Of a stretch of DNA of 23,250 nucleotides, positions 18,210-23,250 are shown piece after piece. Each line of letters opens with the position of its first letter. Within the stretch, counting starts at the first letter, position 1. A program made the position numbers and the translations under genes. The notes beneath the pieces were generated by a model. The model did no database searches and was not told the origin of the DNA. It saw only the letters and a program-made list of their open reading frames with translations. Origin of the DNA: a virus; IMG/VR virus record IMGVR_UViG_3300036785_000871, positions 1 through 23,250 of that record; one strand, given 5' to 3'.

Positions 18210-18231
18210 TTCGTGAGTGCTGAAATTAACC

Positions 18232-18261
18232 TTGACAACCCAGGTTTAGCGGGCGTAAAGC
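18232..18261 (+). promoter_or_regulatory. putative promoter of the nusG-like unit
   Basis: TTGACA (18232-18237), in the CTTGAC context typical of alphaproteobacterial sigma-70 promoters, is followed after 18 bases by TAAAGC (18256-18261). The GTG-start gene begins 40 bases further on. The -35 is perfect; the -10 is weak. Confidence 0.5.
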
Positions 18262-18300
18262 GCGAAATACCATGGACGGGCCGCTGGCAGGGGGAATGCG

Positions 18301-18453
18301 GTGGCCATCTTCGAGCGCCCCTTGCCGAGCGTCCACGGGCGAGCGTTGGGAGAAGCGGTGGACTTGCTTTTGTTCACGAAAGGGGCGGTCAGCAAGGGGT
18401 TCTCGCCGGCTTCGGCCGGGCCTGGCCTCCCGGTTTCTGCGCGAAATGCCTGA
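18301..18453 (+). CDS. possible 50-aa GTG-start gene before the NusG-like gene
   Basis: GTG at 18301 has AGGGGG 7-8 bases before it and starts a sensible frame (VAIFERPLPSVHGRALGEAV, then DLLLFTKGAVSKGF) ending ARNA. The TGA (18451-18453) lies inside the start of the NusG-like gene, an 8-base overlap typical of coupled genes. The other open frame across this region has poor codon character. No family known. If real, it is co-translated with the NusG paralog. Confidence 0.45.
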   Translation: MAIFERPLPSVHGRALGEAVDLLLFTKGAVSKGFSPASAGPGLPVSARNA

Positions 18454-18955
18454 TGCGTGGTACGTCGCGCGTATCAAGACCACCGTAAGTTGGGACACGG
18501 TAATATCCAATTTATGGAGGCAGGGATTTAGCAGCTATCTGCCGATCATAAGCTCAGAGAGATATTTTGCTGGTAAAAAGACGATTATTGAGCAGCCGTT
18601 ATTTCCAACATATATTTTCGTGGCGCTCGATGTCGATATTATGCGCTGGCGTGCCGTTAATTCAACCGTTGGAATACTGCATTTGCTGCCGGCTAACCGT
18701 GAGCAGCCGCTGTCGGTGCCGACCGCGTTTGTCGAGGAGCTGAAAACCCGCAAGACGGCCGAAAAGATGGTCGAGACGGCGCGCAGCTTCGTGGAGCACG
18801 AGCTTGTGCGGTTCATCAGCGGGCCGTTCCTAGACCCGGCCCATAATGCCGCGCGCGTCCTCACTTCCGGGGCTAATTCGACGCGGGTGGTCATGGCTGC
18901 GCTGGGGCGCGAGGTCGTCGTGTCGGTGTCCAACGGAAGTCTCATCTCGGGATAA
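18446..18955 (+). CDS. phage NusG/RfaH-like transcription elongation factor
   Basis: A 169-aa NusG-superfamily protein that binds elongating RNA polymerase. The NGN domain spans about 1-105: WYVARIKTTVSWDTVISNLW, then SYLPIISSERYFAGKKT, EQPLFPTYIFVALD and STVGILHLL. PLFP-x-Y-x-FV is closer to RfaH (PLFPNYLFV) than to the PGYVLV-type motif of NusG. Residues about 118-166 (HELVRFISGPFLDPA to SNGSLIS) fit a KOW domain beginning V-R-x-x-x-GPF. I start at ATG 18446; a longer frame from 18272 looks non-coding upstream. NusG paralogs are uncommon in phages. It sits just before a promoter, structured leader and terminator ahead of the late genes, so it is most likely a late antiterminator. Confidence 0.85.
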   Translation: MPDAWYVARIKTTVSWDTVISNLWRQGFSSYLPIISSERYFAGKKTIIEQPLFPTYIFVALDVDIMRWRAVNSTVGILHLLPANREQPLSVPTAFVEELKTRKTAEKMVETARSFVEHELVRFISGPFLDPAHNAARVLTSGANSTRVVMAALGREVVVSVSNGSLISG

Positions 18956-18982
18956 ATCATGATTTGTTCTGGAAAATTAATC

Positions 18983-19011
18983 TTGACGGCGCGGAATTGC
19001 TGGGATATTCG
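18983..19011 (+). promoter_or_regulatory. putative late promoter
   Basis: TTGACG (18983-18988), in a CTTGACG context, is followed after exactly 17 bases by TATTCG (19006-19011). This would place the start of RNA near 19018. It begins 27 bases after the NusG-like gene's stop and points into the structured leader, the place a phage late promoter would be. Confidence 0.6.
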
Positions 19012-19017
19012 GCAAAG

Positions 19018-19314
19018 TGCGGAACCCGAGTCCGCGGTAGAAAACTTGCTCGGGCGGAACTGTTTGCTGGGAGCGTAGAAACCAGCCGGTCCAGCCACCG
19101 ATCATGCAACGGCGATCCCCTCCAGGCCTTCGGCGAGGGAAATGACCGAAGTGGAGCGTGCTTACGCGTAGGACCCGGCGAGAGCCGGCCGAGTACCGGG
19201 GTTAGAAGCCGATCACCCAAAAATTCCCCCGCCTCGCGAGAGGCCACAGGGGACCGGGCGAGAGGGAAAAACACCGGGAGAATTGTAACAGAGGTCTGTA
19301 CACGTTACGCATAA
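19018..19314 (+). ncRNA. structured leader RNA, possibly an antitermination element
   Basis: About 300 bases between the promoter and terminator with dense complementary segments. They are: CCCGAG (19025-19030) with CTCGGG (19049-19054); GCTGG (19066-19070) with CCAGC (19082-19086); CCCTC (19118-19122) with GAGGG (19135-19139); GCGT with ACGC (19156-19167); CCGGC-GAGA-GCCGG (19175-19188); CCCC plus GCCTC-GCGA-GAGGC plus GGGG (19227-19252); and GTAAC with GTTAC (19285-19308). GAGA and GCGA are GNRA tetraloops. The sequence GTAGAAA occurs at 19037-19043 and 19075-19081. It matches no RNA family I can name (not RNase P, tmRNA or 6S). It may act as a put-like or ops-like recruitment element, or be a stable small RNA. 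Confidence 0.55.
19034..19040 (+). promoter_or_regulatory. GCGGTAG, ops-like motif near RNA start
   Basis: Seven bases identical to the core of the RfaH recruitment element ops (GGCGGTAG...), located about 16-22 bases into the predicted leader. RfaH reads ops in the non-template strand of paused polymerase. Here the NusG/RfaH-like gene ends just upstream. The match is short and could be chance. Confidence 0.3.
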
Positions 19315-19338
19315 CCCAAGGGAAACCTTGGATTTTTT
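19315..19338 (+). terminator. intrinsic terminator before the late genes
   Basis: CCAAGG (19316-19321), loop GAAA (19322-19325), CCTTGG (19326-19331), then A and six T (19333-19338). This is a textbook intrinsic terminator with a GNRA loop. It lies between the leader and the first late gene at 19404, so without antitermination, late genes would be shut off after a roughly 320-base RNA. Confidence 0.85.
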
Positions 19339-19403
19339 CTATGTGTCGAGCGGGGAATCTTAGGTCCGCCCGATGCGGGAGCTACGGCAAAAAGAGGAGG
19401 GGG

Positions 19404-19655
19404 ATGAGCGAAGAGCGGCCTGTCGAACCAACACCCGAAGCGCCACCTGGCGAGACGCCGCCTGAGGTGCCGCCGGCTGGCGAGCCTCGACCGGAGCCTG
19501 AGCCGGCACCACCTCAATCAGGGTACTACGGGGCGGTCTTTAGCTCCACAGCCCGAACGAAAGCGAGCTGTTGGGGCTATCGGTTTAGCCTGGAAGGTGT
19601 ATTGCCGCAGCTTGCCGGCCGTACTTCCCTTGATGAGGAGGCCGATCGGTTATAA
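19404..19655 (+). CDS. Pro/Glu-rich small protein, first late gene
   Basis: An 83-aa protein. The ATG at 19404 has AAGAGGAGGGGG just before it, much better than an ATG at 19341. Residues 1-40 are a proline- and glutamate-rich low-complexity stretch (EERPVEPTPEAPPGETPPE). The rest (YYGAVFSSTARTKASCWGYR, then FSLEGVLPQL) looks globular. No family recognised. It is the first gene past the terminator; head or scaffold-related roles are guesses from position only. Confidence 0.6.
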   Translation: MSEERPVEPTPEAPPGETPPEVPPAGEPRPEPEPAPPQSGYYGAVFSSTARTKASCWGYRFSLEGVLPQLAGRTSLDEEADRL

Positions 19656-19904: not shown

Positions 19905-19920
19905 TTCCAAGGAGTTGGCT

Positions 19921-20409
19921 GTGCCAGTACCTAACGGCTTAACTCAATTCACTCTGGACGAGATCGAAACGGCCCTTCGCAAGACCGGCGGACTGCAATC
20001 CAGAGCTGCCACATTGCTTACGCAGACGTCCAAGGATGGCCGCCATATCACGCGCCAGGGGATTGCGAGGCGCCTGGGGCGTAGCGCCCGCCTGAGAACC
20101 ACCCTCGAAGACATCAACGAGGGGCTGAAGGATATGGCCGAAGATCAGCTGTTGAAAAACATCAAGCGCGGTCGCGAGCGATCGGTCATGTGGTATCTCG
20201 CCACCAAGGCGCGAGACCGCGGCTACGGGTCGGGCGGGAGTGGCGTCGACCTCGATGGGAATTTCGTGGCCGGTGCCTCCGTGCATATCTACATGCCAGA
20301 CAATGGCCGGGATCCACTGATCGTCAACGGCGAGGCCTTGCGTAAGCCGAATGGACGCGGGAACGGTCTTATCACCCACAACGGCGAAGACGCCGAGGGC
20401 GACCGCTAG
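19921..20409 (+). CDS. terS: terminase small subunit
   Basis: About 163 aa. The GTG at 19921 has CAAGGAG 8 bases upstream; a TTG at 19915 is less likely. The N-terminal part (FTLDEIETALRKTGGLQSRA, ITRQGIARRLGRSARL) is a helix-turn-helix that would read the packaging site, followed by a helical oligomerisation segment (LEDINEGLKDMAEDQL, then RSVMWYLATKARDRGYG) and a Gly-rich, beta-containing tail. The helix pattern and the place just before the large subunit fit TerS. It overlaps the large subunit gene by 59 bases. Confidence 0.85.
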   Translation: MPVPNGLTQFTLDEIETALRKTGGLQSRAATLLTQTSKDGRHITRQGIARRLGRSARLRTTLEDINEGLKDMAEDQLLKNIKRGRERSVMWYLATKARDRGYGSGGSGVDLDGNFVAGASVHIYMPDNGRDPLIVNGEALRKPNGRGNGLITHNGEDAEGDR

Positions 20410-21868
20410 CCCCACCCATTCCTTTGCCCCGCAGGAAGGGCCACAAACACAGTTCGCCGCGTCACCGGCCGACATCGTCATCTTTGGCGGCGCGGCTGGT
20501 GGCGGGAAAACTCATGGTTTGCTCCTTGAGCCACTTCGGCACATCACCAAAGTAACCGGGTTCAATGCAGTCGTCTTTCGTCGCACGACGCCGCAGATCA
20601 TCAATGCCGGCGGGCTCTGGGACGAGAGCAAGAAGATTTATCCCTTCACTGGCGCAGTCGCGCATCATGGGCTGCACCAGTACACCTGGCCCAATGGCAA
20701 CACACTGCGTTTCGCGCATATGCAGCACGAAGACACGGTGTACGACTGGCACGGTGCGCAGATCGCGCTGCTGTGCTTCGACGAGCTCACCGGCGGCCGC
20801 GAGGGTGACGATCACGGCTTCTCGTTTTTTCAGTTCTGGTATCTGCTTAGTCGCAATCGCAGCACTTGCGGCGTGCGCCCCTATGTGCGCGCCACCTGCA
20901 ATCCCAATGCAGATAGCTGGGTCGCCGATTTCATTGCATGGTGGATCGACCAGGATACCGGATTTCCAATCCTCGAGCGCGCCGGGAAGCTGCGGTATGT
21001 CGTTCGTGGCCCGGCCGACAAGCTAATCTGGTCGGACGATCCCGAGGAGCTGAGGGGATATCTGCCGAGCACTGCCGATCTGCCTCCTGGTGTCGAGCCA
21101 CCCGGACCCAAGTCGGTGACGTTCATCCCCGCGAATATTTATCAGAACCCGGCGTTGCTGCGGATAAATCCCGAATACCTCGCCAGCTTGCAGATGCTGC
21201 CCGAGGTGCAGCGCGCCAGGCTGCTGCTCGGCAACTGGAAGATACGGCCGGCGGCCGGCCTCTATTTCCGCCGCGAGTGGTGTGAGATGATAGACTTCGA
21301 GGATCTCCCGGTCGATCTTCTGGTCTGTCGATATTGGGATCTCGCTGGAACGGAAAAAACCGAGACCAATGACCCGGACTGGTCAGTGGGGGTGAAGCTC
21401 GGCCAGGACGTCGATGGTCATCTTTATGTGGTGCATGTGGTGCGACTGCGCGGCGGTCCTTATGAAGTGGAAAATGCACTCATCAATACCGCCAGCATCG
21501 ACAGTTGGAAGGTGCCGCTCGGCTTCGGGCTCGACCCGGGGCAGGCCGGCAAGTGGCAGGCCGCCTATCTGGTTAGTAAGCTGATCGGGTACAATGCGCT
21601 GCCGGCGCCGGAGACTGGCGACAAGGCCACACGATTCGGGCCGTTTTCGTCGCAATGCAGGGCGGGCAACGTGCGGATCGTTCGCGGCGACTGGAACGAG
21701 GCGTTCTTTCGAATGCTAGAGGGGTTCCCCGATCTGGCTCACGACGACGACGTCGACGCCTGCAGCGGCGCGCTCGAGCTGCTCCTGGCGCATCTGCAGC
21801 AGCCGATGATGATCACCGACGAGACCATCAGGCGAGCCAAGATGATGCCGCGCCGCCGCCATGCCTGA
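20351..21868 (+). CDS. terL: terminase large subunit
   Basis: The 505-aa packaging motor and nuclease. N-terminal ATPase: Walker A GGAAGGGKT (46-54), preceded by DIVIF; Walker B LLCFDE (D144, E145). C-terminal RNase H-like nuclease: RYWDLAG (acidic residue near 330), GLDPGQAGKWQAAY near 390, and HDDDVDACSGALE near 460-475, supplying the metal-binding acids. It uses ATP to drive DNA into procapsids and cuts it. ATG 20351 is the only good in-frame start near; it overlaps TerS by 59 bases and has a weak Shine-Dalgarno sequence. The packaging strategy cannot be told from this sequence alone. Confidence 0.96.
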   Translation: MDAGTVLSPTTAKTPRATASPTHSFAPQEGPQTQFAASPADIVIFGGAAGGGKTHGLLLEPLRHITKVTGFNAVVFRRTTPQIINAGGLWDESKKIYPFTGAVAHHGLHQYTWPNGNTLRFAHMQHEDTVYDWHGAQIALLCFDELTGGREGDDHGFSFFQFWYLLSRNRSTCGVRPYVRATCNPNADSWVADFIAWWIDQDTGFPILERAGKLRYVVRGPADKLIWSDDPEELRGYLPSTADLPPGVEPPGPKSVTFIPANIYQNPALLRINPEYLASLQMLPEVQRARLLLGNWKIRPAAGLYFRREWCEMIDFEDLPVDLLVCRYWDLAGTEKTETNDPDWSVGVKLGQDVDGHLYVVHVVRLRGGPYEVENALINTASIDSWKVPLGFGLDPGQAGKWQAAYLVSKLIGYNALPAPETGDKATRFGPFSSQCRAGNVRIVRGDWNEAFFRMLEGFPDLAHDDDVDACSGALELLLAHLQQPMMITDETIRRAKMMPRRRHA

Positions 21869-22373: not shown

Positions 22374-23250
22374 ATGGCTTTAACCGCGGTTCGCCCCGAC
22401 AAGAAACCCCCGCGTCGCCGCCGCAGCCCGGTTGCCTGGGTTACCGATACGCTGCTTGCGCGAGCCCGCGCCTATCGCCGACCGGGCGCCGCCTCTGTAG
22501 ATCGAGACTGGCTCGAGCGAGCGTTTAAGGCCGCAGAGCCACCGCCGGGGGTGGTGCCGGCCGGCCGCAAGCTTATCGCTCAGGACGAGGCGATCGGCGA
22601 TGCGTTCGGCTGGGCCACGGGGTTTGGCGGCATCATTTCGAGTTCTTACGCCGAGGGGCTGATTTGGCCCGGCTATACCGAGCTCTCCCTCCTCGCGCAG
22701 CGCGCCGAGAACCGTGTCATCTCGGAAGAAATCGCCGCCGAGATGACCCGCGAGTGGATCACGCTCAAGTCTGCGTCGAACCAGGATAAGACCGAGAAGA
22801 TCAAGCAGATCAACGAGGGGATGACCGAGATCAAGGCTCAGGCCGTTTTGAAGAAAGGTGTGGAGCACGACGGTCTCTACGGCAGCGCTAAGATTTATCT
22901 CGATTGCTGTGATCCAGACGACAGTGAGGAGTTGAAACAATCAATAGGCGATGGCCACGGCGCGCTGTCGAAGTTGAAGGTCAACACCGAGCAGCCGCTG
23001 AAAGCGGTTCGCACTGTAGAGCCAGTGTGGGTCTATCCAACGAACTACAACAGCGTCAATCCGTTGCGCGCCGATTGGTACCGGCCGGAGACTTGGTTCG
23101 TCATGGGCCGCGAGGTGCATCGCACGCGCCTGTTGACGCTGGTCGGCCGGGAAGTGCCGGACATCCTGAAACCCGCTTATTCGTTCGGCGGTCTAAGTAT
23201 GACGCAGATGGCCAAGCCCTACGTCGACAACTGGCTGCGCACCCGCCAGT
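22374..23250 (+). CDS. phage portal protein, DUF1073-type, partial
   Basis: The 3' end lies beyond the window; 292 codons are visible. The ATG immediately follows the upstream TAG. Pieces seen: WPGYTELSLLAQRAENRVIS; EEIAAEMTREWITLKS; DKTEKIKQINEGMTEIKAQA; GLYGSAKIYLDC; PVWVYPTNYN and PLRADWYRPETWFVMGREVH; then REVPDILKPAYSFGGLSMTQ, with QMAKPYVDNWLRTRQ at the end. These match the DUF1073 portal family (head-to-tail connector, DNA passage and packaging motor docking), from memory of that family. The N-terminus (1-45) is basic and Pro/Arg-rich. It follows the two small AT-rich genes after terL. Confidence 0.9.
   Translation, partial: MALTAVRPDKKPPRRRRSPVAWVTDTLLARARAYRRPGAASVDRDWLERAFKAAEPPPGVVPAGRKLIAQDEAIGDAFGWATGFGGIISSSYAEGLIWPGYTELSLLAQRAENRVISEEIAAEMTREWITLKSASNQDKTEKIKQINEGMTEIKAQAVLKKGVEHDGLYGSAKIYLDCCDPDDSEELKQSIGDGHGALSKLKVNTEQPLKAVRTVEPVWVYPTNYNSVNPLRADWYRPETWFVMGREVHRTRLLTLVGREVPDILKPAYSFGGLSMTQMAKPYVDNWLRTRQ

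Follow-up and report, generated by a model that had tools for sequence, protein, structure and literature searches.

A non-coding leader between a NusG/RfaH-type gene and the late genes of a phage as a candidate attenuator

What is a stretch of about 300 nt without a gene doing between a regulator of transcription and the late genes of a phage? The locus lies in an IMG/VR virus record of 23,250 bases, the whole of which was analysed and is called the window below. From position 18446 onwards it comprises a NusG-domain gene, a gap with a CTTGAC promoter, the geneless stretch, a terminator, a proline-rich gene, a small frame, a helix-turn-helix protein, the large terminase and the portal protein. 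In lambda, the Q - PR′ - 6S - tR′ region likewise consists of a regulator gene, a late promoter, a short untranslated transcript and a terminator, followed by the late genes. The order in the window is the same, with a weak, putative promoter; unlike in lambda, the regulator belongs to the NusG paralogs and has no relation to Q, and the leader is longer and carries capped hairpins. Most of what is known about NusG paralogs, among them RfaH, LoaP and UpxY, comes from bacterial operons.

The genes and signals around the leader

The gene upstream of the leader (18446..18955, plus strand) encodes a specialised NusG paralog of the NusG/RfaH type, with matches to PF02357 (E 4.1e-13) and to phrog_6386 (E 1.1e-11), a family annotated as 'transcription antiterminator'. 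Among the NCBIfam models RfaH ranks first (TIGR01955, 81.3 bits with a cut-off of 144.5), followed by UpxY (48 bits), NusG (39 bits) and LoaP (NF033641, 34.4 bits with a cut-off of 125), every score being under its cut-off. The AlphaFold2 model, built from 18 sequences (pLDDT 86), contains the C-terminal strands, and its best Foldseek matches are RfaH and NusG chains (30% identity to RfaH over 97 columns), an assignment with which the sequence profiles agree. As modelled, the product has both the NGN domain and the KOW-type C-terminal barrel by which the NusG family is recognised. An in-frame ATG at 18272 would allow an N-terminal extension of this protein. Some 180 nt (18262-18445) separate the promoter box of the gene from its start, and they contain a 23-nt inverted repeat (18312-18334 and 18383-18405) with 78% complementarity. 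Further upstream, the segment 17332-17777 is richer in A+T (GC 0.48 versus 0.60) and has no coding bias in any frame.

On the downstream side, all on the plus strand, the first gene 3′ of the terminator (19404..19655) encodes a proline-rich product of no family; it has a purine-rich ribosome site, AGAGGAGGGGG, its start codon was picked by eye and its coding bias is not clear. The helix-turn-helix protein (19915..20409) has coding bias and a weak HTH_8 match below the cut-off (E 0.0067), and its place suggests that it acts as the small terminase. The large terminase (20351..21868; PF03237, E 3.2e-22, and PF17289) and the portal protein (22374..23249; PF06381, E 7.4e-26), which is cut by the end of the window, complete the series.

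Two similar promoter-like boxes precede the nusG-like gene and the leader. The putative promoter of the gene (18223..18260, plus strand) has the box AAATTAACCTTGAC and a weak -10, with -10 and start read by eye. The putative leader promoter, also read in the sequence (18974..19011, plus strand), comprises the box AAATTAATCTTGAC, a 17-nt spacer and TATTCG, with the CTTGAC-type part at 18982-19011. The boxes at 18223 and at 18974-18987 agree at 13 of 14 bases; AAATTAAYCTTGAC precedes both the gene (18223) and the leader (18974). Elsewhere in the window its 13-base core has no mismatch-free copy. The leader promoter was not called by a stricter sigma-70 scan, and its -10 is poor. At the other end, the terminator scan called an intrinsic terminator, CCAAGG-GAAA-CCTTGG-A-TTTTTT (19316..19339, plus strand), with a pair probability of 1.00. 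The initial annotation had placed the leader between a promoter and a terminator, and both are present.

The leader RNA itself (19018..19315, plus strand; its start presumably some 7 nt past the -10) is non-coding. Although a TTG-started frame stays open across it (18964-19314), codon-bias scores in all six frames of 19018-19314 lie between -0.28 and -0.37, compared with +0.22 for the terminase and +0.07 for the nusG-like gene, and a protein hidden in the leader was ruled out on this ground, in agreement with the earlier view that there is no coding alternative. We found no tRNA or tmRNA in the leader and no match to any Rfam family even at E 5, which bears out its description as an RNA of no recognised family.

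Hairpins and overall folding of the leader

The leader had also been described as strongly structured, a view that a folding energy no better than that of shuffled sequence was to refute. By this test the description fails, although a narrower measure supports it. The leader has a minimum free energy of -106.9 kcal/mol, shuffled sequences average -105.9 (z -0.19), and 80 of 200 shuffles fold equally well; sub-windows of 80 and 120 nt range from z -1.59 to +1.78 around a background mean of -0.46, and none stands out. We therefore do not accept the total folding energy as proof that the leader is structured. What stood of the description is the place and anatomy of the leader and an excess of one hairpin type, while its folding strength was overstated. 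Between 19018 and 19340 there are exactly three perfect GNRA-capped hairpins with stems of at least 5 pairs (shuffle mean 0.03), a number reached by 0 of 2000 shuffles, a test that lends support but is not blind, since the hairpin type had been named after reading the sequence. Among the 2294 windows of 323 nt in the 23 kb, only eight hold three such hairpins, and every one of these overlaps the leader. One of the three is the terminator itself, which leaves two without it. When any loop of 3-8 nt is admitted, perfect stems of at least 5 pairs number 5 versus 2.3 expected (241 of 2000 shuffles).

Both hairpins named at the outset exist. CCGGC-GAGA-GCCGG (19175..19188, plus strand; hairpin scan and pair probabilities) depends on context: its pair probability is 0.04 when the full-length leader is folded, 0.73-0.91 in local folds that begin at 19100 or later and 0.01 in 19018-19200. 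GCCTC-GCGA-GAGGC (19231-19244), seen in the hairpin scan and in the minimum free energy fold, is extended by an outer stem TCCCC/GGGGA (19225..19253, plus strand); its inner stem has a pair probability of 0.96, and the hairpin is stable in all tested contexts in which it is present. In the 5′ part of the leader, again on the plus strand and as read in the sequence, a stem CCCGAG/CTCGGG surrounds GCGGTAGAAAAC (19025..19054), with a possible ops-like core, GCGGTAG, in the loop, and a stem GCTGG/CCAGC (19066..19086) carries the second GTAGAAA in its loop. The GTAGAAA elements, noted earlier as repeats beside stems, do occur twice in the whole window and both times in the leader, but over 300 nt chance alone is expected to produce a repeated 7-mer. 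No UNCG loop was found in 19018-19340 by a perfect-stem scan (at least 5 pairs, loops of 3-8 nt), the TTCG at 19129-19132 having a single closing pair only.

RNAs behind nusG genes in other phages

Searches for relatives of this leader returned none. Neither blastn against phages nor the AAA protein yielded a homologue, and none was found in the 10 stretches collected with nusG protein patterns or in the 7 collected with the protein in the small-terminase position. A terminase-based search gave 66 viral and 6 genome loci, in which blastn of the leader produced chance-level matches only. The closest terminase relative (64%, L002) is without a nusG gene; in 50 terminase-related records the PF02357 search found one NusG-type gene, and the locus with such a gene, L010, has no comparable leader. 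A phrog_6386 search of 16 further loci matched 1 of 12 viral records. An exact 18-mer of the leader occurs in 20 viral contigs, but we rejected it as a sign of kinship and regard the matches as coincidence, since 19 of the 20 lie in one coding-looking region shared by unrelated phages and the twentieth is in a different sequence. Because no homologue was found, the leader of the window has no covariation support.

The position behind a nusG-type gene is informative. In the Sinorhizobium phage phi3LM21, an annotated NusG antitermination gene is followed by 223 geneless nt, a hypothetical gene and the terminase, and the folding of the gap is somewhat more stable than that of shuffled sequence (z -2.0). 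Relatives of this gap occur in phi2LM21, Rhizobium phage PPF1, Nostoc phage Nsp-JY10 and Mesorhizobium phage MseS-P1. In all five named phages a conserved RNA of about 130 nt (L107:4036-4187, L149:2442-2566, L150:2454-2563, L151:2451-2580 and L152:2404-2530) starts 19-57 nt past the annotated NusG antitermination gene, and in the four with an annotated stretch long enough to include them, terminase genes lie downstream. None of the five gave an Rfam match for this RNA.

A degenerate pattern derived from the 3′ half of the phi3LM21 RNA matched at least 120 stretches in viral contigs (L153-L272). In 105 of the 120 listed matches an open frame ends 91-153 nt upstream of the core; the rest comprise 13 without a frame, several of them at the edge of the locus, and 2 with frames at other distances. 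Among the matches listed, 94 frames come from distinct leaders, and 90 of them match the NusG of phi3LM21, the exceptions being L158, which was left out of the model alignment, L182, L229 and L254. Also among the matches listed, 85 of 100 leaders have a terminator-like hairpin within 95 nt (20 of 300 random stretches do), and GNRA hairpins are enriched, with 27 in 101 leaders versus 1.3 expected. Whereas RNAalifold on a mixed alignment of 51 sequences gave 6 pairs only, a homogeneous subset of 17 sequences supports a 28-pair structure in which 92.9% of cells are paired and compensatory changes affect 9 of the 28 pairs (32 cells versus 10.9 in shuffles). These covariation counts hold for one subtype and a hand-written structure, because the subset, made up of 16 of the 51 sequences and the Nostoc phage, was picked by eye to represent one 5′ type and we wrote the structure ourselves. 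The helix with the TCARGGC strand can vary only to a limited degree, since most of that strand is fixed by the collecting pattern.

The two covariance models built for this RNA, R1 and R2, recover all five named phages (R2 at 44-134 bits). Among 199 genomes of one order, the model search found the RNA in 2, and in one of them (G051) the contig also has a NusG match, 31 nt before the start of the RNA. In two of the named phages the RNA overlaps an annotated protein, namely the 'hypothetical protein' PPF1_92 (L150:2452-2604) and, in MseS-P1, the first part of an 'HNH nuclease' (L152:2514-2849); at least in PPF1 this is probably an over-annotation. Neither model matched any of 27 other nusG loci, and we rejected the window leader as a member of the family, its best score in the window being 8.1 bits at a site away from the leader. 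Since the leader stands outside the family, what the two have in common is the layout of NusG paralog, non-coding RNA, terminator and late genes: the rhizobial-phage RNA too follows a phrog_6386-type gene, has a terminator on its 3′ side and precedes late genes, but differs from the window leader in sequence and structure. Of the two RNAs in this position, the rhizobial one is the better supported, and as a covariance-supported family without an Rfam match it is ready for testing in laboratory rhizobial phages.

Not every phage nusG gene is followed in this way. A search with a two-sequence NusG alignment returned 30 viral loci, in which the stretch after the nusG gene is often short. In 26 other phage loci GNRA hairpins are not enriched in the 350 nt after the gene (1 versus 0.46), and most of these loci have no terminator in the 420 nt past it. 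A second recurring hairpin, ATACCC-NNNAAAN-AGGGCATT, stands after nusG-type genes in L082 and L087, with a variant in L104. A pattern scan for the ATACCC..AAA..GGGCAT hairpin found 4 stretches: L273 and L275, which are the same contigs as L082 and L087 and in which another long stem-loop comes after the hairpin, L274, which starts at the motif, and L276, which is without a nusG-like frame there.

A late attenuator and its rivals

We consider it probable that the leader is a late-operon attenuator relieved by the NusG/RfaH-type protein encoded upstream. This reading draws on the NusG-family gene directly upstream, the terminator before the next gene, the non-coding leader and the terminase and portal genes downstream, as well as on the promoter box common to the nusG gene and the leader, the three GNRA hairpins, the recurrence of nusG paralog, RNA and terminator in other phages and the published precedent of LoaP; the elements fit the LoaP and RfaH modes and the plan equals that of lambda. 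Transcription, presumably late, from about 18982-19011 would yield a non-coding RNA of about 320 nt and halt at the terminator (19316-19338). Once accumulated, the NusG/RfaH-type protein would be recruited to RNA polymerase during transcription of the leader, either via one or more leader hairpins (the LoaP mode) or via an ops-like pause near +17 (the RfaH mode), and polymerase would then continue past the terminator and transcribe the late genes, those for terminase and portal among them, with a 6S-like short RNA as the terminated by-product. Against this reading count the ordinary fold, the poor -10 of the promoter, the failure to find a leader homologue or a match to the rhizobial RNA, the presence of a NusG gene in only 1 of 50 terminase-related records, and the 26 other phage nusG loci, where GNRA hairpins are not enriched and a terminator is mostly absent. 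A host factor could also relieve the attenuator, which likewise counts against this reading.

The published precedent is LoaP, which, according to passages of PMC12691694 and PMC7819879, binds to a hairpin of the leader and enables readthrough of the leader's intrinsic terminator, the loaP gene adjoining its target operon; the dfn leader region of Bacillus velezensis measures 417 nt (a passage of PMC12691694). As in dfn/mln, a NusG paralog stands beside the presumed target operon, and leader hairpins followed by an intrinsic terminator precede the first gene. In contrast to LoaP, the protein studied here scores far below the LoaP cut-off, the caps are GNRA and not UNCG, and phage late genes take the place of an antibiotic cluster; binding is a prediction.

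Protein similarity points instead to RfaH, which gives the best NCBIfam model and is among the top structural matches. If the phage protein worked like RfaH, the recognised element would be a DNA pause site on the non-template strand, GCGGTAG at 19034-19040 (about +17), and the hairpins would serve only folding, stability or ribosome entry; we regard this reading as somewhat unlikely. In the early leader the possible ops-like element is limited to this 7-nt core. Its shorter form CGGTAG occurs in the first 150 nt past the nusG-type gene at 4 of 27 loci versus 0.67 expected, which is not significant, since the word ranked 14th (index 13) and was selected after being seen. The 6-mer ranking covered the 150 nt after nusG genes; TAGAAA, ranked 1st, and CGGTAG were rejected as shared boxes, neither being significant over 4096 words. 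In the rhizobial-phage RNA family CGGTAG is found in 16 of 101 leaders among the matches listed, versus 1.3 expected, but the box sits in a stem-loop with covarying pairs, which makes the RNA equally likely as the recognised element. The ops element forms a small hairpin, and in this leader that hairpin is incomplete. RfaH is recruited by ops DNA at a pause and is rather inefficient against intrinsic terminators (passages of PMC7819879); here, by contrast, the score lies below the RfaH cut-off, the gene stands beside its presumed target and the intrinsic terminator is strong.

Three further explanations remain. It is unlikely, though not remotely so, that this is an ordinary intergenic gap, a terminator of the nusG-like gene or an operon end, with chance hairpins of a G+C-rich genome; the folding energy, not below that of shuffles, and the lack of homologues fit such a gap, whereas the excess of GNRA hairpins, the promoter-like box repeated in front, 300 non-coding nt in a compact phage and the recurrence of nusG paralog, RNA and terminator elsewhere do not. 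Slightly less likely still is a stable late small RNA in the manner of lambda 6S, with readthrough incidental: a promoter-to-terminator unit without a gene would produce such an RNA of about 320 nt and capped hairpins would stabilise it, but this gives no reason for the adjoining NusG paralog, the total fold is ordinary, and a 6S-like RNA is compatible with the attenuator anyway. Stem-loops near a promoter, then a terminator, in a phage leader tied to antitermination also recall the put RNA of HK022, which would act by binding RNA polymerase; put, however, is early, comprises two stem-loops in about 70 nt and does not depend on a dedicated protein (passages of PMC9378689), while here a dedicated NusG paralog adjoins, and we hold this explanation to be very improbable. 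The initial annotation had offered a put-like RNA, a riboregulator and a 6S-like RNA side by side. Its antitermination context has held up, and a protein-dependent (Q-, RfaH- or LoaP-like) leader is likelier than a protein-free put because the NusG/RfaH paralog lies directly upstream and the terminator directly downstream.

We raise tentatively the wider idea that in many tailed phages the late antiterminator is a NusG/RfaH paralog with its own leader RNA directly behind, a widespread and undescribed counterpart of lambda Q. Co-evolution of protein and RNA would then account for unrelated leader RNAs (those of the window, of the rhizobial phages and of the ATACCC..AAA..GGGCAT type) in the same place, and each phage pair of NusG paralog and leader would be a compact system for the choice of target, RNA hairpin versus DNA pause. 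In the open-licence literature searched, including passages of PMC7819879, PMC12691694, PMC7593976, PMC5537653 and PMC9378689, which have little on phages, we found no description of a NusG paralog from a phage that works through a leader RNA; rfaH-like genes on prophages receive a passing mention in PMC7593976, and the word NusG does not occur in the LM21 prophage paper.

In one further phage locus, a GTGC-GGTA-GCAC hairpin lies directly past the nusG-type gene (L086:5470-5481). It resembles the ops hairpin.
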